Source of the DNA: Burkholderiales bacterium
GTDB lineage: Bacteria; Pseudomonadota; Gammaproteobacteria; Burkholderiales; Burkholderiaceae_D
Length of the DNA stretch: 53,783 bases
Assembly: GCA_016196925.1 (NCBI GenBank)
Contig: JACPWS010000050.1
Location: 1 to 53,783, forward strand
Direction of reading: 5' to 3'
In this document: positions 3,224 to 11,198 of the stretch, in pieces
How the letters are laid out: each line of letters starts with the position of its first letter
Position numbering within the stretch: the first letter of the stretch is position 1
Notes under the pieces: model-generated
Seen by the model: only the letters and a program-made list of their open reading frames with translations
Told to the model about the DNA's origin: nothing
Databases searched by the model: none
Translations under genes and position numbers: made by a program

Positions 3224-5794
3224 TTAACTTCCGGCGATGCGTTTAGCGATATGCGCCAGCGCTGCTTCCACCTGATCGATCAGGATCAGGCATAAATCGC
3301 CTTCATTCAAGCGGTCCAGCGCCAGATCGATCGCGATAAACTCGCCGGTGATTTCGTCGATGCGGGAGCTGCGCTTGGCATCGCCCAGGCCGGCGCGCAG
3401 CAAGGCGATGACTTCGCCGTCGGCGCGGCCGCGCTGGCATTGATCCTGATACAGCACGACATCGTCGAATGCGTCGCCGAGGATTTCGGTTTGCTGGCGT
3501 ATGTCCTGGTCGCGCCGGTCGCCGGCGCCGCTGATGACGACCGAACGGCGCTTGGCCGGCATGCTTTCGACCGCCTGCACCAGGGCCAGAATCGCATCCG
3601 GATTGTGACCGTAGTCGGCAATCACGGTGGCGCCTTTATGGCTGAACACATTGAAGCGTCCGGGCGCGTTATCGCTTTCGGTGGTGAAGGTCTGCAAGCC
3701 GGCGCGTATCGCATCCCAGCCGATGTCGACCGCCCAGGCGGCGGCGACCGAGGCCATCACATTTTCGACTTGAAAGCCTATGCTGCCGCCGCGGGTCAGC
3801 GGGATGTCGGCGAGCGGGATGTCGAGGCGCAGCTTGCCTTCCGCGGCTACCAGGCATCCGTCTTCGACGTAGACCACGCGCTTGCCCTGGGCCCGGTGGG
3901 CGGCCATGACCGGGTGTTGGTGATCGGCGGCGAAGAAGATGACGGCGGCCGGGCAATTGGCCGCCATGCTGGCAACGATAGGGTCGGCCGCATTCAGCAC
4001 TGCATAGCCGTCGTCTGCAACGTTCTGCACGATCACGCGTTTCAATACGGCCAGGTCTTCGACCGTGGTGATGTAGTTCAGACCGAGGTGGTCGCCCGAG
4101 CCGATGTTGGTGATGACGGCGACCTGGCTGCGGTCGAACGCCAGTCCTTCGCGCAATACGCCGCCGCGCGCGGTTTCGAATACCGCCGCATCGACGTCGG
4201 GGTGAGATAAGACGTTGCGCGCGCTGCGCGGCCCGCTGCAGTCGCCGCTGTCGATCTGGCGTCCTTCGACATACACGCCGTCGGTATTGGTCATGCCGGT
4301 GCGCAGTCCGCCGGCCGTCAGCAGATGGGCGATCAGGCGCACCGTCGTGGTTTTTCCATTGGTGCCGGTGACCGCGATGATGGGGATGCGGCCATCTTCA
4401 TGCTCTTCAAACATGGCGGAAACGATCGCTTCCCCGACCGGCCGGCCCTTGCCGAAGGAAGGCGAGAGGTGCATGCGCAAACCAGGCGCGGCGTTGACTT
4501 CGACGATGCCGCCGTTTTGCTCTTCGATCGTCTTCAAGACGCTGTCGCACACCACGTCCACGCCGCAAATATCGAGGCCGACCATGTGCGCGGCGGCTAC
4601 TGCGCGTGCCGCAACTTCAGGGTGGACGTCGTCCGTCACGTCCGTCGCCGCGCCGCCGGTGGACAGGTTGGCATTGTTGCGGAGTATGACGCGCTGGCCT
4701 TTGGGCGGAACCGAGTCGGCCACATAACCTTGCTTGGCCAGACTGGCGAGCGCGATGTCGTCGAAGCGTATCTTGGTCAGCGAGGTCGCATGGCCGCTGC
4801 CGCGGCGCGGATCTTTATTGACTTGTTCGACCAGTTCGCGCACGGTTTGCTTGCCGTCGCCCACCACTTGCGGCGGATCGCGCCGGGCTGCCGCCACCAG
4901 CTTGTTGCCCACCACCAGCAAGCGAAAATCGTTGCCGGGCAAGAAGCGTTCGACCAGGATATCGTCGCGGAATTCGGAGGCGGCGGCGAAGCCGGCATCC
5001 AGCTGTTCGCGCGTGGTGACATTGACGGTGACGCCTTTGCCCTGATTGCCGTCTTTCGGCTTGACCACCACCGGCAGGCCGATTTCCAGCGCGGCAGCCC
5101 AGGCGTCGTCCGGGCTGACGACCGAGCGCCCCAAAGGCACGGGCACGCCGGCGGCATGCAGCAATTTCTTGGTCAATTCCTTATCCTGCGCGATCGCTTC
5201 GGCGATCGCGCTGGTGCCATCCATTTCGGCGGCTTGAATCTTGCGCTGGCGGCTGCCCCAGCCGAAGGCGACCAGGCTGCCGTCGGTCAGGCGGCGATAA
5301 GGGATGTTGCGCGCCACGGCGGCGTTGACGATAGAGCCGGTGGATGGGCCGAGACGCACGTCTTCGTCCAGATCGCGCAACTGCGCCAGCGCCGCCGGTA
5401 AGTCGAAAGCGGCATCGTCGCACGCGGCCTGGATCAGCGTTTGCGCCAGTTCCAGCGCGAGGCGGCCGACCGCTTCTTCAGAATATTCGACGACGACCTG
5501 GAAAATGCCGGGCTCCAGCGTCTGCGTGCTACGGCTGAAGGTGACCGGGCAGCCGGCCTGCGCCTGCAACCCGAGGGCGGTGAGTTCCAGTACGTGCGCG
5601 ATAGAAATCGCATCGTCGTGCCCGGTCGGTTGCAGTACGCTTAACTCCGGGAACAGGGCACGCAAGCGCTCTTCAAATCCGGGCAATCCTGCAATTGATT
5701 GCTCGGCATCAGTGCAGGCGACGATGGCTTCAATTGCCGTGTGATGGCTCCAGAGATTCGGGCCGCGCAGGGCACGGATGCGTGATACTTCCAT
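3224..5794 (-). CDS. cphA: cyanophycin synthetase with active-type Mur-ligase domain
   Basis: Cyanophycin synthetase builds the storage polymer multi-L-arginyl-poly-L-aspartate: the ATP-grasp domain adds Asp to the backbone and the Mur-ligase domain adds Arg to the side chain. The 856-residue protein has an N domain (about 1-160), an ATP-grasp domain (ELTKKLLHAAGVPVP onward, with KPKDGNQGKGVTV) and a Mur-ligase half with an intact P-loop TGTNGKTT (Lys481), ETARGG, and the C-terminal subdomain (PGRFNVF, DYGHNPDA, GAGDRRD). I chose the ATG at 5794, preceded by AGGA, over a TTG ten codons upstream. Oddity: the N domain lacks the GGFLER motif, and HxxEH is degenerate (HVLEL, residues 67-71). The second paralogue lies 122 bp upstream on the same strand. 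Confidence 0.93.
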   Translation of the reverse strand: MEVSRIRALRGPNLWSHHTAIEAIVACTDAEQSIAGLPGFEERLRALFPELSVLQPTGHDDAISIAHVLELTALGLQAQAGCPVTFSRSTQTLEPGIFQVVVEYSEEAVGRLALELAQTLIQAACDDAAFDLPAALAQLRDLDEDVRLGPSTGSIVNAAVARNIPYRRLTDGSLVAFGWGSRQRKIQAAEMDGTSAIAEAIAQDKELTKKLLHAAGVPVPLGRSVVSPDDAWAAALEIGLPVVVKPKDGNQGKGVTVNVTTREQLDAGFAAASEFRDDILVERFLPGNDFRLLVVGNKLVAAARRDPPQVVGDGKQTVRELVEQVNKDPRRGSGHATSLTKIRFDDIALASLAKQGYVADSVPPKGQRVILRNNANLSTGGAATDVTDDVHPEVAARAVAAAHMVGLDICGVDVVCDSVLKTIEEQNGGIVEVNAAPGLRMHLSPSFGKGRPVGEAIVSAMFEEHEDGRIPIIAVTGTNGKTTTVRLIAHLLTAGGLRTGMTNTDGVYVEGRQIDSGDCSGPRSARNVLSHPDVDAAVFETARGGVLREGLAFDRSQVAVITNIGSGDHLGLNYITTVEDLAVLKRVIVQNVADDGYAVLNAADPIVASMAANCPAAVIFFAADHQHPVMAAHRAQGKRVVYVEDGCLVAAEGKLRLDIPLADIPLTRGGSIGFQVENVMASVAAAWAVDIGWDAIRAGLQTFTTESDNAPGRFNVFSHKGATVIADYGHNPDAILALVQAVESMPAKRRSVVISGAGDRRDQDIRQQTEILGDAFDDVVLYQDQCQRGRADGEVIALLRAGLGDAKRSSRIDEITGEFIAIDLALDRLNEGDLCLILIDQVEAALAHIAKRIAGS

Positions 5795-5916
5795 AAAACT
5801 TAGTCCTGTTGAAAGGGGCTGCAAATGATGACCAGACGCGCATCGCCTAATGCGGATGCGGGTCGCTTGCCATCAGAAAAATAGGCGATTCGAACGGTAT
5901 TATTGTCAAATATGCG

Positions 5917-8094
5917 TCAATAAGCGGTTTTTATGCTGGAGTCGAAAGTTCTGAGCCCGGCATCCAGCAATTCCGGTGTGATGTCCAGCGCCCACGCAGC
6001 GGCTACCGCGGCCAAGACGCTATCGGGTTGCCTGGCTTCCGACGGTTTTAACGCGGACAAGGGGAGCAGGGCCGTTTCTTGTGCGCCGTTTGCCAGTACG
6101 ATATGGTTGTCGCGCAAGAACACCGCTCGTTCGCCTCGGGCGCGATGAGCGACGATGGCGTCGAGCGTAGGGGCGAGCGCATAGAAAATGACTTTGCCGT
6201 CGCACAATTCGGCCAGGTCCGCCACCGCTGCTTCGGCCGCGTTCAGGATTGCCACGCCATCCGGCAAGATGACGTCTACCTGGGTGCGCAGGATTTTGGA
6301 CATCTGATCGGCTTCGTTAATGTAAAACTCGCCGAGTCCGGCATGGCCATCCAGGTCGGTGACCACGCCTACCGCGCACTTATCGTAAGCGAGGCCGTCA
6401 GTTAGCATACGACGGGCGTTCGTTTCAAATACCGCCGCCTGCACCGAACGGTTGATTAACAGACGCTGACCGGATTCCCAGTCGGCGCAATCGCCTGGCG
6501 TGACCAGGCGCTGGTCCAGAAACAGTCCTTCGGCGCAAGCCGTGCCGGTGTGTTTGCCGCCGACGTGAATCAGTGCGGCGATCAGTCGCGCAATCAGGCT
6601 GGTGCCGCGCGTACCGGCGACGCCGACGATCGCGATGCGACCGCTTTCTTCGGCGGCGAACAGGTGGTCGATGATAGCTTTGCCGACCTGGCGGCCTTCG
6701 CCGTTGGCGGGTTTGATATGCGCCAGCAAGCCCGGGCTGGCGTTAACTTCGATAATCGCGCCGCCCTGGCTTTGCAAGGGGCGGGAAATGTCGTCGGCCA
6801 CCAGGTCGACGCCGGCGATATCGAGTCCGACCACGCGGGCCGCGAGCGTCGCGGCGGCCGCGACTTCGGGATGCAACTGGTCGGTAACGTCAAAGGCGAC
6901 ATTGCCGTTAGGTTGAATTAATACTTTTTGGCCGTTCAGCGGTACCGAGTTTGCGTCCATGCCCTGGCGTTTTAATTCCAGTATGACTTCGGCGCCCACG
7001 GCCGGGTCTATCGTGTTCAGCGGAAACTCTTCTGTCGTGCCGCGGCGCGGATCGGTGTTGATCTGCGCGTCGACCAGTTGCTGGATCGTGCCATGGCCGT
7101 CACCGGTCACCCAAAGCGATTCGCCTTTGGCGGCGGCGACGACTTTTTTGCCGACCACCAGGATGCGATGCTCATTGCCGGTGACGAAGCGTTCGACGAT
7201 GACGCTCTTGCTACCGCCCTTGCGGGCAGCCAGCTGGTAGGCGGCCTCGACATCGGCCCGGGTCATCAGATTCAGCGAAACGCCGCGGCCGTGATTGCCG
7301 TCATACGGTTTGAGCACGACCGGCAAACCTATATCCTGCGCCTCTTCCCAGGCTTCTTCGGCGCTGCGCACGATGCAGCCTTCCGGCACCGGCACGCCGC
7401 AGGCTTGCAACAGGGTCTTGGTCAGGTCTTTATCGCAGGCGATGCTTTCGGCGATCGCGCTGGTTCTGTCGGTTTCTGCAGTCCAGATACGGCGCTGGGC
7501 CGCACCATGTCCGAGTTGCACCAGGTTGCCGTCGGTCAGGCGTATCGAAGGGATGCGGCGCTCGGTGGCGGCATCGACGATACTGGCCGTGCTCGGACCG
7601 AGGCAGCGTGCATCCACCATGTCGCGCAACTCAGCCAGTTTGCCGTCCAGATCAAACGGCGTGTCTTCTATCGCCGCCATCAATAAATCCCGGCCTAAGG
7701 CCAGCGCGGTGCGCCCGACTTGCTCTTCGCGGGTGCGGAACGCCATCTTGTAAACGCCGGTTTTGCCGGTAGAGCGGGTCTGGCCGAAGCCGGTGCGCAT
7801 GCCCGCCAGATTTTGCAGTTCCAACACGACGTGTTCCAGGATATGCCCGGCCCAGGTGCCTTCGCGCAGGCGCTCGAGAAAGCCGCCCCTTTCGCCGACG
7901 CCGCAGCGATGCTCTACCATTCCGGGCAACCAGGCGCTCAGCCTTTCGTACAGGCCGGGTAAAGTGTTGGAAGGAAAATCCTCCAAGGCACCGATATCCA
8001 GCCATGCTTCGATGACGGGACGGTAAGTCCAGATATTCGGGCCGCGCAAATGGCTTGCACGGAGGATGCGGATGTTTTTCTGCTTCGTTGTCAT
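5917..8094 (-). CDS. cyanophycin synthetase paralogue with degenerate Mur-ligase half (CphA2-like)
   Basis: A 725-residue paralogue of the neighbouring CphA. The N domain is well conserved (RGPNIW, GGFLERLREGT and HILEHVVLELQNLAG, residues 84-98), and the ATP-grasp domain is complete (DLTKTLLQACGVPVPEG, KPYDGNHGRGVSL, IIEVNASPGLLAHIKP). In the Mur-ligase half the P-loop reads AGTRGTS, with Thr498 in place of the catalytic-type lysine, and the protein ends at about the FDSS position, so the C-terminal Mur-ligase subdomain is missing. This resembles the CphA2 group, in which one ligase activity is lost. The ATG at 8094 fits the homologous N-terminus; starts up to 8181 are open in frame. It is probably co-transcribed with cphA, and may be a partner subunit (inference). 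Confidence 0.85.
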   Translation of the reverse strand: MTTKQKNIRILRASHLRGPNIWTYRPVIEAWLDIGALEDFPSNTLPGLYERLSAWLPGMVEHRCGVGERGGFLERLREGTWAGHILEHVVLELQNLAGMRTGFGQTRSTGKTGVYKMAFRTREEQVGRTALALGRDLLMAAIEDTPFDLDGKLAELRDMVDARCLGPSTASIVDAATERRIPSIRLTDGNLVQLGHGAAQRRIWTAETDRTSAIAESIACDKDLTKTLLQACGVPVPEGCIVRSAEEAWEEAQDIGLPVVLKPYDGNHGRGVSLNLMTRADVEAAYQLAARKGGSKSVIVERFVTGNEHRILVVGKKVVAAAKGESLWVTGDGHGTIQQLVDAQINTDPRRGTTEEFPLNTIDPAVGAEVILELKRQGMDANSVPLNGQKVLIQPNGNVAFDVTDQLHPEVAAAATLAARVVGLDIAGVDLVADDISRPLQSQGGAIIEVNASPGLLAHIKPANGEGRQVGKAIIDHLFAAEESGRIAIVGVAGTRGTSLIARLIAALIHVGGKHTGTACAEGLFLDQRLVTPGDCADWESGQRLLINRSVQAAVFETNARRMLTDGLAYDKCAVGVVTDLDGHAGLGEFYINEADQMSKILRTQVDVILPDGVAILNAAEAAVADLAELCDGKVIFYALAPTLDAIVAHRARGERAVFLRDNHIVLANGAQETALLPLSALKPSEARQPDSVLAAVAAAWALDITPELLDAGLRTFDSSIKTAY

Positions 8095-8465
8095 GTATGT
8101 AATTTCTTGATGACCGGGTTTATCGGACGCCGGCCGTATCATTTTTAGAGCTTTTCTTCGCCTGCTGAGGACGATGCGCAATCATGTTTGCCGCATGATT
8201 GCCGCTTGATTGTTCTGGCAACTTCACTATCTGGCAGAAAGCGGATGGGATAAGCACGCTTGCTGGTATACTTGCGCGCCAGCGCAAAAGCTTTCATCCT
8301 CTTGATCAGGTTTAATCTGATTATTTTTCTTTCGATAGAATACCGTAAATTGCCGCTTCCGTGATACGGCTAAAGCCTATTACGGAAATCATGTTATCCC
8401 TTTTTGTTAAATTTCCTGTCCTTGATACGCTCAGGACTAGCTCTTGAGCCGGAGTCCGTTTTACG
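8095..8465. other. divergent intergenic region between the two cyanophycin transcription units
   Basis: A 371-bp non-coding stretch that must hold the promoters of both the cphA pair and the ABC transporter. No convincing sigma-70 pair was found by eye. It contains an imperfect inverted repeat at 8357-8387 (arms TTCCGTGATACGGCT and AGCCTATTACGGAA), described among the findings. GGAG lies 11 bases before the transporter ATG. The open frames across this stretch look spurious. Confidence 0.6.
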
Positions 8466-10724
8466 ATGACCACACCACAAATCAGTGCCGAACAGTCACT
8501 TGTGACGCTTCCAGCCGCCTGGCAACCCGAGTTGATAAAACAGATCGCCGCAGGCGAAAACGTTTTAAGCGTGGTGGAGGTTGACCTGGATAGCAAACTT
8601 CGTTTCACCCGCGGCCTGATTGTGGTTACCGACCGGCGTTTATTGGCAAAAGCACCTGGTGAACTTGAATGGCGCGATTGGGGGTATCGAAACGGCTTGC
8701 AGTTAAGTCACCACGATCACGCCGGTGTCGGCCATCTGGAATTGCTGGATGAAACCGGCAAGCTGGCGCACTGGCGTTTCACGCTGGGGCAAAACCTGCA
8801 CGCGATCCGCTTGCTCGACCATTTCAGGGAGCAATTGCAAAGCCATGTCAGCGGCTTGCCGGTCATCCGCGCCGAACAGAATGTCTGCCCGAGCTGCAAG
8901 GCCGTGCTGGAACCGGATCAGGAAGAATGCCCGGTCTGCACCAAGGTGATCTATACGCCACCCTCGACCTGGACCCTGTTCCGCCTGTGGCGCTTTGCCC
9001 ATCCGTATCGCCTGCAATTATTCATAGGCTTTAGTCTGATGCTGCTCGGTACCGCGGCTCATATGATTCCGCGCTACCTGACCAAGCCTTTGACCGATGA
9101 AGTCCTGATTCCGTATCAGAGTGGGCAACAGGTCGATCCGCAACTGGTGATGCTGTATATCGGCGGCTTGCTGGGATCGGCAGTGGTGGCCTGGCTGCTG
9201 AGCTGGGGCAAGACCTATATCCTGGCCCTGGTGTCCGAGCGCATCGGCGCCGACTTGCGCACCGCCACTTACGAACATTTACTGAAGCTGTCGCTGGAAT
9301 ATTTCGGCGGCAAACGCACCGGCGACCTGATGTCGCGCATAGGCAGCGAAAGCGACCGCATCTGCGTGTTCCTGTCCTTGCATTTGCTCGATTTCGCGTC
9401 CGACGTGCTGATGATCATCATGACCGGCGTGATTTTGTGCTCGATCAATCCCTGGCTGGCGCTGGTGACTCTGGTGCCTTTGCCTTTCATCGCCTGGATG
9501 ATCCATATCGTGCGCGACCGCTTGCGCACCGGTTTCGAAAAAATCGACCGGGTCTGGGGCGAAGTCACGAATGTGCTGGCCGACACCATCCCCGGCATCC
9601 GCGTAGTGAAAGCGTTTGCCCAGGAGAGGCGTGAAGCGAACCGTTTCCGCGAAGCGAACAAGCACAACCTGGCCGTCAACGACAAGCTGAACAAGGTCTG
9701 GTCTTTGTTTTCGCCTACGGTTTCTTTTTTGACGGAACTCGGTTTGCTGGTGGTGTGGGCATTCGGTATCTGGCAAGTATCGAAAGGCGAAATCACGGTC
9801 GGCGTATTGTCGGCATTTATCGCTTACAGCGGGCGTTTTTATGGTCGTCTCGATTCCATGAGCCGCATCGTGTCGGTCACGCAAAAATCGGCTTCGGCGG
9901 CCAAGCGTATCTTCGATATTCTGGATCACGTTTCCAGCGTGCCGGAACCGGCCAACCCGGTGAAACTGGAGAAAATCGAAGGTCGCATCGACTTGCGCGA
10001 AGTCGGTTTTCGCTACGGTAACCGCGCCGTGAATCGCGGCATCAACCTGAATATCAAGCCCGGTGAAATGATAGGCCTGGTCGGGCATAGCGGCTCCGGC
10101 AAGAGCACGCTGGTGAATCTGATCTGCCGTTTCTACGACGTGTCGGAAGGGGCGATTCTGCTCGATGGGGTGGATATCCGCTCGTATGCGGTTGCGGAAT
10201 ACCGCAGTCAGATTGGCCTGGTGTTGCAGGAACCTTTCCTGTTCTTCGGCACGATCGCCGAGAATATTGCTTACGGCAAGCCGGATGCGAGCCGGGACGA
10301 CATCATCGCGGCTGCGCGTGCCGCGCATGCGCATGAGTTCATTCTGCGCTTGCCGCAAGGCTACGACTCTATGGTCGGCGAGCGCGGCCAGGGCTTGTCC
10401 GGCGGCGAACGTCAACGCATCTCGATTGCGCGCGCCTTGCTGATCGATCCGCGCATCCTGATCATGGATGAGGCGACGTCGTCGGTCGATTCGCAAACCG
10501 AAAAAGAAATCCAGAAGGCGCTCGACAATCTGGTGCAGGGTCGCACCACGATCGCGATTGCACATCGCTTGTCCACTTTGCACAAGGCCGACCGCCTGGT
10601 GGTGCTGGACCGGGGGCAGGTAGTCGAAATCGGACACCATGACGAATTGATGGCGAAGCAGGGCGCTTATTACAACTTGTACCAGGCGCAAGCCAGAAAC
10701 GCCGCCGAATTGGTGGAGGAATAA
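8466..10724 (+). CDS. cyanophycin-associated ABC transporter, fused permease-ATPase with N-terminal zinc ribbon
   Basis: A 752-residue half-transporter of the exporter type. Residues 1-135 form a soluble domain I do not recognise further; a zinc ribbon follows (CPSC at 141-144, CPVC at 155-158). The transmembrane domain runs from about 170 to 450 (several helices such as LFIGFSLMLLGTAAHM and FIAYSGRFYGRL). The ATPase domain carries Walker A GHSGSGKST (Lys546), signature LSGGERQ (644-650), Walker B ILIMDEATS and the H-loop IAHRLST. Homologues are annotated as cyanophycin metabolism-associated ABC transporters because they sit beside cphA, as here, divergent from the cphA pair. The substrate is unknown; peptide, amino acid or lipid are all possible. 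The DUF1854 gene follows after 3 bases. Confidence 0.9.
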   Translation: MTTPQISAEQSLVTLPAAWQPELIKQIAAGENVLSVVEVDLDSKLRFTRGLIVVTDRRLLAKAPGELEWRDWGYRNGLQLSHHDHAGVGHLELLDETGKLAHWRFTLGQNLHAIRLLDHFREQLQSHVSGLPVIRAEQNVCPSCKAVLEPDQEECPVCTKVIYTPPSTWTLFRLWRFAHPYRLQLFIGFSLMLLGTAAHMIPRYLTKPLTDEVLIPYQSGQQVDPQLVMLYIGGLLGSAVVAWLLSWGKTYILALVSERIGADLRTATYEHLLKLSLEYFGGKRTGDLMSRIGSESDRICVFLSLHLLDFASDVLMIIMTGVILCSINPWLALVTLVPLPFIAWMIHIVRDRLRTGFEKIDRVWGEVTNVLADTIPGIRVVKAFAQERREANRFREANKHNLAVNDKLNKVWSLFSPTVSFLTELGLLVVWAFGIWQVSKGEITVGVLSAFIAYSGRFYGRLDSMSRIVSVTQKSASAAKRIFDILDHVSSVPEPANPVKLEKIEGRIDLREVGFRYGNRAVNRGINLNIKPGEMIGLVGHSGSGKSTLVNLICRFYDVSEGAILLDGVDIRSYAVAEYRSQIGLVLQEPFLFFGTIAENIAYGKPDASRDDIIAAARAAHAHEFILRLPQGYDSMVGERGQGLSGGERQRISIARALLIDPRILIMDEATSSVDSQTEKEIQKALDNLVQGRTTIAIAHRLSTLHKADRLVVLDRGQVVEIGHHDELMAKQGAYYNLYQAQARNAAELVEE

Positions 10725-10727
10725 ATC

Positions 10728-11198
10728 ATGACGACAACGGTATTTCAATTGAGCCGCAATGCTTACGGCAAGCTGCTGATGCGCAATGAGGCGGGTGAAG
10801 TGCATGAGGGCGTCAGCCCGGTGCGCGCTTTTCCTATCCAGTCGCCCGATCAGGGTATTTCCATGGTGCTATCCGATGGGCGCGAAGTCGCCTGGATAGA
10901 TCATTTGTCCGATCTGCCGGAAACCACGCGCAAGCTGGTGGCGGAAGAGTTGGAAGGGCGCGAGTTCATGCCCGAGATTCGCCGCATAGCGAGCGTCACC
11001 AGTTTTGCCACGCCCTGCACCTGGGTGGTCGACACCGACCGCGGCGCGACCGAATTCGTGCTGAAGGGCGAAGAAGACATACGTCGCATAGGCCGGGCAT
11101 CGTTGTTGATCGCCGACAACCACGGCATCCATTTCCTGATACGCGATATGTTCGCGCTCGACAAGCATAGCCGCAAGATACTGGACAGATTCTTGTAA
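10728..11198 (+). CDS. DUF1854 protein of the cyanophycin locus
   Basis: A 156-residue soluble protein with the DUF1854 pattern: an N-terminal FQLSRNAYGKLLM strand, VSPVRAFPIQSPDQGISMV, DGREVAWIDHLSDLP, and a C-terminal FLIRDMFALDKHSRKILDRF. No signal peptide or membrane segment is seen. It starts 3 bases after the ABC transporter stop and is surely co-transcribed with it. The family is recurrently found with this transporter and cphA, so a shared function is likely, but its biochemical role is unknown. Confidence 0.88.
   Translation: MTTTVFQLSRNAYGKLLMRNEAGEVHEGVSPVRAFPIQSPDQGISMVLSDGREVAWIDHLSDLPETTRKLVAEELEGREFMPEIRRIASVTSFATPCTWVVDTDRGATEFVLKGEEDIRRIGRASLLIADNHGIHFLIRDMFALDKHSRKILDRFL

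Follow-up and report, generated by a model that had tools for sequence, protein, structure and literature searches.

The window, by which we mean the whole 53,783-nucleotide stretch of DNA analysed (contig JACPWS010000050.1 of a Burkholderiales bacterium, assembly GCA_016196925.1), carries two adjacent genes for cyanophycin synthetase-like proteins, both on the minus strand. The upstream gene (5917..8094) encodes CphA', a protein of 725 residues, and is followed after a gap of 122 bp by the gene for CphA (3224..5794), of 856 residues counted from the ATG or 866 if a TTG start is used. The two genes are probably co-transcribed, CphA' first. Both proteins share the N-G-M architecture and fold of CphA1 (SuCphA1, TeCphA1). 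Undivided CphA1 carries its three sites in one chain (17/17 in the survey described below), whereas in the window pair these sites are divided over two chains. CphA' has an intact N-domain endo-cyanophycinase site and has lost the aspartate (Asp) pocket of its G domain, and its M domain is devoid of the P-loop lysine, Lys602 and the C-terminal lid. CphA keeps the Asp- and arginine (Arg)-ligase sites and has lost the N-domain metal site.

The functions of the residues concerned have been described for several CphA1 enzymes. As reported in sections of PMC9262961, the N-domain motif Cx19HxxEH forms a zinc-binding endo-cyanophycinase that turns the first chains into primers, with C59, H79, E82 and H83 (SuCphA1 numbering) serving in metal binding or as the base; D585 and H586 are mutation sites of the M domain, and the H267A change inactivates the G domain of SuCphA1. 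Structural sections of PMC9427784 assign K220, K261, D431 and E450 of the G domain to ATP and Mg, put H267 and R309 at the end of the chain, and locate R323, N394, S396 and R458 around the aspartate; in the M domain, K499 (ATP), T500, T522 and E558 form the site, and the lid contributes R731 and H748. The initial annotation of this stretch had described two tandem CphA paralogues with complementary lost motifs, and according to the structures in these two sources the changed positions do fall in active sites.

In CphA', the alignment with SuCphA1 shows that H57, C59, R70, H79, E82, H83 and E87 are retained. The metal site, Cx19HILEH (7831..7905, minus strand, like all features of the two genes given below), contains C64, H84, E87 and H88, which correspond to SuCphA1 C59, H79, E82 and H83; in the predicted structure HILEH is carried by a helix spanning residues 82–96, and the endo-cyanophycinase residues H57, C59, R70, H79, E82 and H83 are all present in the N-domain fold. 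The G domain retains K220, K261, H267, R309, D431 and E450, and its Asp pocket is disrupted: by alignment, Gly324 (7123..7125) stands at CphA1 Arg323, which holds the Asp beta-carboxylate, Leu457 (6724..6726) stands at Arg458, which holds the alpha-carboxylate (roles from the structural part of PMC9427784), and S396-T397-G398 of the substrate loop are deleted (6895..6906), GNV-A replacing ANLSTGG. The M-domain P-loop is degenerate (AGTRGTS, 6598..6618), K499 being replaced by Thr and D585/H586 by Ala/Gly, and the lid is missing, since similarity to SuCphA1 stops at residue ~725, ahead of it. No Pfam match to Mur_ligase_M or Mur_ligase_C was obtained in CphA' at E <=0.001, whereas both were matched in CphA. 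The motifs first read in this protein (GGFLER, HILEH, AGTRGTS) and the absence of the C-terminal Mur-ligase subdomain were thus found again. Judged by the CphA1 sites, CphA' has the N-domain Cx19HxxEH and lacks both the Asp pocket (R323, N394, S396, R458) and the Arg-ligase (M) site. Its identity to SuCphA1 is 45% in the N domain and 41% in the G domain; it scores above the NF010623 subfamily cut-off (1023.5 bits vs 877) and below that of the curated CphA1 equivalog TIGR02068 (708.9 vs 850).

In CphA, the N domain keeps H79 and E82 and has lost H57, C59, R70, H83 and E87. The stretch bearing H57 and C59 is deleted, and HVLEL (5582..5596), a remnant of HxxEH in which the first His and the Glu are kept and the second His is lost, is found where SuCphA1 has HIVEH. 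The G-domain P-loop reads GNQGKG (5033..5050), with Gln at SuCphA1 His267, and the alignment identifies the Asp-binding loop NLSTGG (N394, S396; 4652..4669) and the M-domain P-loop TGTNGKTT (4346..4369). In the G site, K220, K261, R309, D431, E450, R323, N394, S396 and R458 are all kept, the exceptions being His267 to Gln and Glu215 to Ala; in the M site and lid, so are K499, T500, T522, E558, D585, H586, R731, H748 and Lys602, the last of which may be the counterpart of the carbamylated lysine of Mur ligases. Identity to SuCphA1 is 46% (G) and 44% (M-core), and CphA passes both curated CphA1 scores (TIGR02068, 978.9 bits, cut-off 850; NF010623, 1255.9, cut-off 877). The SuCphA1 alignment agrees with the earlier description of CphA (TGTNGKTT present, HVLEL for HxxEH, no GGFLER). 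The Cx19HxxEH that CphA lacks is not strictly CphA1-defining: in a CphA1 set made non-redundant at 70%, a passage of PMC9262961 puts its frequency at 83%, and it is absent from TmCphA1, so the statement that known CphA1 combines all these motifs was too strong. The structure model of CphA was poor (mean predicted local distance difference test score, pLDDT, 72.3) and was not used for geometry.

The retention of each site was then surveyed across the order. The sequences came from the best 80 of 134 confirmed CphA' relatives (76 with CphA on the same contig), one region each from 60 genomes, spread over genera, out of the 148 CphA-positive among 399 genomes of the order, and, in addition, ten regions, the loci of a Pseudomonadota sample and five plasmid loci. 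Copies were assigned to CphA' or CphA according to how similar the whole protein was to each of the window pair, motifs playing no part in the sorting, and site counts refer to unique readable sequences after removal of identical copies (2 CphA, 1 CphA'). Excluded from these counts were L149-L167 and L177 (short second fetches, mostly from genomes represented elsewhere, with nine genomes otherwise absent: G133, G093, G020, G043, G377, G076, G343, G225 and G031), L168 (the L210 gene), L204 (divergent, G016), L203.5926 (second half of a split CphA), L198.5281, L206.1070 and L207.1482 (separate Mur ligases), and L211 and L212 (CphA only, added later); L200 and two G056 copies were tallied separately as 'other'.

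The N-site was complete in 140/140 CphA' and in 0/137 CphA, so that the complementary loss noticed at first in one genome is not due to chance; it was also complete in all 17 undivided CphA1. Four CphA (L065, L068, L134, L143) contain an HxxEH string within the first 200 residues, yet have no N-site. The exact Cx19 spacing is found in 140/140 CphA' versus 8/17 undivided enzymes, the rest of which have one to three additional residues. Conversely, the Asp pocket was complete in 0/141 CphA', 131/131 CphA and 17/17 undivided CphA1. Its loss is the most uniform change in CphA': the S396-G398 deletion occurs in 141/141, and R323G, the loop deletion and R458L are nearly fixed, N394 by itself being mostly retained. 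The M-core site was complete in 10/142 CphA', 128/128 CphA and 17/17 undivided CphA1, and Lys602 is present in 1/143 CphA' rows (L126), in all 129 CphA rows covering the position and in 17/17 undivided enzymes.

This pattern, read from sequence, gives good support to a division of labour between CphA' and CphA. We consider it fairly likely that the pair is a natural two-subunit cyanophycin synthetase, with CphA' supplying CphA with primers. CphA would be the polymerase, its G domain extending the chain end by Asp, to which its M domain would then attach Arg; both ligases are assigned to it because the G domain of CphA' has lost the Asp pocket. Being unable to cut the polymer, CphA should depend on a primer, by analogy with TmCphA1, which likewise has no working N metal site and requires a primer (sections of PMC9262961). 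TmCphA1 differs from CphA in retaining His267 (GNHGRG). CphA' would be the primer-maker, its zinc endo-cyanophycinase cutting the first chains into short primers that CphA extends, while its M domain, presumably dead, and its G domain, presumably unable to hold aspartate, would both be kept largely as a scaffold. The division of work suggested in the initial annotation thus stands and is conserved in the order, except that CphA would supply the Asp and Arg ligases and not the Arg ligase alone. The N-domain function that it attributed to one partner can now be named, as an endo-cyanophycinase making primers; the loss of the Asp pocket in CphA' had been missed.

The main support for the two-subunit reading comes from this conservation together with a published experiment in trans, in which addition of the N domain gave TmCphA1 primer-free synthesis (PMC9262961, in part). 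The text of the same source describes an engineered SuCphA1 heterodimer, N-G+M+/N+G-M- (Sharon 2022), with the same layout of live and dead sites as CphA/CphA'; it showed the cis activity with primer and somewhat less without. The engineered heterodimer consists of point mutants of one protein, whereas CphA and CphA' are evolved and conserved. A mixed oligomer would be expected on the G-core/M-core contacts of CphA1, but free CphA' supplying primers would also work; the hetero-oligomer is what we infer, and action in trans without a stable complex fits equally. In SuCphA1 a change of Trp672 yields dimers, and Glu215 touches the chain across the dimer. The Trp672 position is unconserved in CphA, CphA' and undivided enzymes and is therefore uninformative on a mixed oligomer; CphA has lost Glu215, and CphA' varies at this position. 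In the M-core, S603 and E607 of SuCphA1 contact the polymer bound at the N-site (PMC9262961, in part). Because position 607 is Asp in 142/143 CphA' rows (mostly Gln in CphA), the CphA' M-core may have been retained for its part in forming the cutting site; at position 603, Arg is present in 143/143 CphA' rows, but also in 120/129 CphA.

Several points weigh against this interpretation. The residues for ATP and the chain end are retained in the G domain of CphA', although a pure scaffold would not need them, and the proposal leaves this unexplained. CphA has Gln at His267, and in SuCphA1 the H267A change leaves the G domain inactive. In a single genome, G358 (87% complete; L211, G358:C131), CphA is preceded by 2.4 kb of sequence without a CphA'. 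A figure legend of PMC9262961 gives another heterodimer combination, G-M+N+/G+M-N-, and given this mismatch with the text we place more weight on the trans experiments than on the heterodimer. Finally, Ralstonia eutropha has two homologues, and its wild type is reportedly without cyanophycin (a passage of PMC11362209); the product of such pairs is therefore not established.

The retained G-domain residues could also mean that CphA' is a second ligase, whose ATP-binding G domain joins an acceptor other than free aspartate, such as a beta-Asp-Arg dipeptide, another chain or a small amine, so that the protein would both cut and join chains. K220, K261, R309, D431 and E450 occur in 140/140 CphA' and His267 in 139/140. 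In a conservation test on 108 truncated CphA', thinned at 90% identity, this ATP/primer site greatly exceeded randomly drawn G-domain columns in conservation (P about 0.0001), and the Asp-pocket changes are almost fixed, as would be expected of a re-shaped pocket and not of decay. However, no acceptor-binding residue can be named, the loss of R458 removes alpha-carboxylate binding, and ATP binding might instead serve allostery or oligomer stability. We regard this possibility as unlikely.

The same test bears on whether CphA' is simply a decaying duplicate with no catalytic role. Its M-domain ATP-site is less conserved than the domain mean (0.477 vs 0.634, P about 0.05), and the lid has probably been lost repeatedly, with 6 changes on the tree. 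Against decay, the N-site was more conserved than random N-domain columns (0/20,000 draws reached it), all seven N-site residues are present in 140/140 CphA', and CphA' lies directly upstream in 133/133 pairs, which makes decay highly improbable. The 6 lid changes were counted on a tree built from the N+G part of 67 CphA', and starred branches force no fewer than 2 of them; loss of the M-lid in CphA' thus appears secondary and probably happened more than once. The lid is kept in 9/142 unique CphA', all 9 without Lys602. The idea that CphA' is defined by the loss of its M domain was rejected, these nine full-length proteins having lid and P-loop and lacking Lys602 and the Asp pocket.

CphA2 has a reduced M domain, as truncated CphA' does. 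Since the window CphA' also has a single plausible ATP site, it might be a CphA2-type enzyme that re-polymerises beta-Asp-Arg dipeptides, and a neighbouring pair in the beta-proteobacterium Sideroxydans has indeed been named CphA1 and CphA2 (a passage of PMC5178258). On the other hand, CphA2 has no N-site motif according to part of PMC9262961, and CphA' has it. CphA2 also seems to keep the loop deleted in CphA' (a net five-residue difference to 8fxh and 7ta5, judged by aligned lengths alone), and its fold is farther from CphA'. We consider a CphA2-type activity improbable.

The substitution at position 267 raises the question of whether CphA with Gln267 is unable to ligate Asp alone, the pair being obligate for synthesis and not for priming only. 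Gln267 is found in 133/133 CphA and His267 in 139/140 CphA', and loss of this histidine is what the inactive H267A variant of SuCphA1 represents (PMC9262961, in part). However, the Glid loop that carries His267 comes from the same chain in TeCphA1 (a structural passage of PMC9427784), so that with the geometry known so far a partner is not expected to lend this residue, and L210, L200 and the two extra G056 copies have Gln267 too, all with the Asp pocket. Gln267 may be tolerated because L210, the one undivided enzyme of 17 that has it, is intact at its other sites; the three N-less copies (L200 and the two in G056) are likewise intact at theirs. An obligate pair in this sense seems quite improbable.

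With regard to history, a tree of 90 rows, from which the trait columns had been removed, was built by a quick search without bootstrap. A single branch sets off its 33 CphA, and another its 35 CphA', from all other rows, with Shimodaira-Hasegawa-like approximate likelihood ratio test (SH-aLRT) supports of 100 and 100. Because they form separate clades, the data fit a single ancient duplication, after which the two copies lost complementary sites. The undivided L210 joins CphA (SH-aLRT 93), and L210, CphA and CphA' are grouped at 99. L210 (4441-6783, G577:C9), a CphA1 that has the N-site, the Asp pocket and the M-core site as well as Gln267, may represent the condition preceding the split; no partner is found within 4.4 kb upstream, and the contig ends inside the gene.

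As for gene arrangement, CphA' is upstream on the same strand in 133/133 tandem pairs (one genome being counted twice, as L036 and L108), with a gap of -4 to 276 bp and a median of 46 in the 132 pairs with a settable start. In the Pseudomonadota sample, where two candidates per genome were scored, 20/20 CphA-positive genomes of the order had two matches and 9/9 outside it had one. The contig ends at the expected partner position in G287 and G030, and CphA' and CphA lie on two contigs in G005. The nearest relatives of the window CphA' among the matches listed are from Undibacterium (<=83% identity).

Divergently from CphA', on the plus strand, lie genes for a cyanophycin metabolism-associated ABC (ATP-binding cassette) transporter (8466..10724; NF052233, 1420.4 bits, cut-off 880) and a cyanophycin metabolism-associated DUF1854 protein (10728..11198; NF052234, 239.2 bits, cut-off 150). 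Among the best 80 of 134 relatives, both genes were found divergent beside CphA' in 68/68 loci with more than 3 kb upstream. The intergenic region between the divergent transporter and CphA' genes (8095-8465) may be a shared control region; promoter and terminator scans gave matches at chance number, with one weak promoter-like match in this region, not above chance.

We also examined cyanophycinase, of which the source genome (94% complete) gave no TIGR02069 match at E <=0.001. The 148 CphA-positive genomes were split into 135 of pair type, 11 undivided and 2 other (G016, G136), the type being set by sequence for 66/135 and 4/11 and by match number and genus for the remainder. A cyanophycinase above the curated cut-off was found in 10/135 pair-type versus 11/11 undivided genomes; any match at E <=1e-10 in 14/135 versus 11/11; and a strong match (E <1e-60) in 5/135 versus 10/11 (Fisher P 3.6e-11, uncorrected for kinship). 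Among undivided-CphA1 genomes, cyanophycinase lies near cphA1 in G199, G113 and G280 and on a separate contig in G086. According to a passage of PMC10206079, 2.8% of 903 beta-proteobacterial CphA1 genomes have a recognisable cyanophycinase, a result called 'unanticipated' there, with isozymes not yet known being suggested. It is possible, though we would not expect it, that in beta-proteobacteria CphA' is a dedicated cyanophycin-processing enzyme responsible for both priming and turnover, its conserved ATP-binding G domain making it a live non-aspartate ligase that cuts and re-joins or caps chains, CphA only extending; if true, this would account for the missing beta-proteobacterial cyanophycinase. 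A search of the source genome for an asparaginase-type dipeptidase gave one match, in a 78-residue frame only.

Neighbouring beta-proteobacterial cphA/cphA' copies, that is, the gene pair itself, are very likely already in print. Adames in 2013 is said to have noted the missing loop in CphA'. Neighbouring cphA copies are described for activated-sludge bacteria, both being evenly expressed in Accumulibacter (PMC10687191), and two cphA copies for Herminiimonas (PMC5670224), each in the part of the source concerned. The published passages on the pair do not describe reciprocal site loss, and among the open-licence papers listed by the literature searches the titles and the abstract openings shown hold no description of such a split, although a subscription paper may hold one. 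The enzymology in the relevant sections of PMC9262961 and PMC9427784 covers CphA1 of Synechocystis, Trichodesmium, Tatumella and Acinetobacter. The clade table in PMC10206079, as far as that part of the source goes, counts 903 beta-proteobacterial CphA1 genomes (the columns sum to 1,440; the total is given elsewhere as 1,614), and should the split hold throughout that group, a divided enzyme would be present in over half of the cyanophycin synthetase genomes counted. The two-subunit proposal makes it testable why a recognisable cyanophycinase occurs in just ~3% of beta-proteobacterial genomes, and why no product was seen in wild-type R. eutropha, which has two homologues, if its pair is of the divided kind. 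It also makes testable whether separate primer-making and polymerisation let the cell tune their balance, which a single chain (PMC9262961, in part) cannot do via expression level. For production strains, the prediction is that both genes should be transferred together.

Further observations concern individual loci. Undivided CphA1 occurs in the same order (L146, L148, L206, L207) in genomes with cyanophycinase and offers a natural control for the pair. L204 (4397-6721, G016:C20) encodes a very divergent 775-residue relative on a long branch, with no N-site residues and altered G residues. In L203 (G011:C67), CphA sits behind an intact-looking CphA' in two overlapping frames (4533-6173 and 5926-7347), broken at the G/M boundary, which may be a further natural split or a frameshift. 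The plasmid search listed 35 records, 0 of them cyanobacterial. Outside the order, tandem cphA copies have been described in Tetrasphaera, with cphB (a passage of PMC10687191). The CphA'/CphA pair on a contig labelled as an Akkermansia muciniphila metagenome-assembled genome (L080) clusters with burkholderial pairs, probably owing to a binning error. Lastly, the genome of L201 (G056:C1:5337000-5347500) has two extra CphA copies in addition to its tandem pair. They lie near a cyanophycinase, on opposite strands, and each has Gln267 and no N-site while keeping the Asp pocket and M site.

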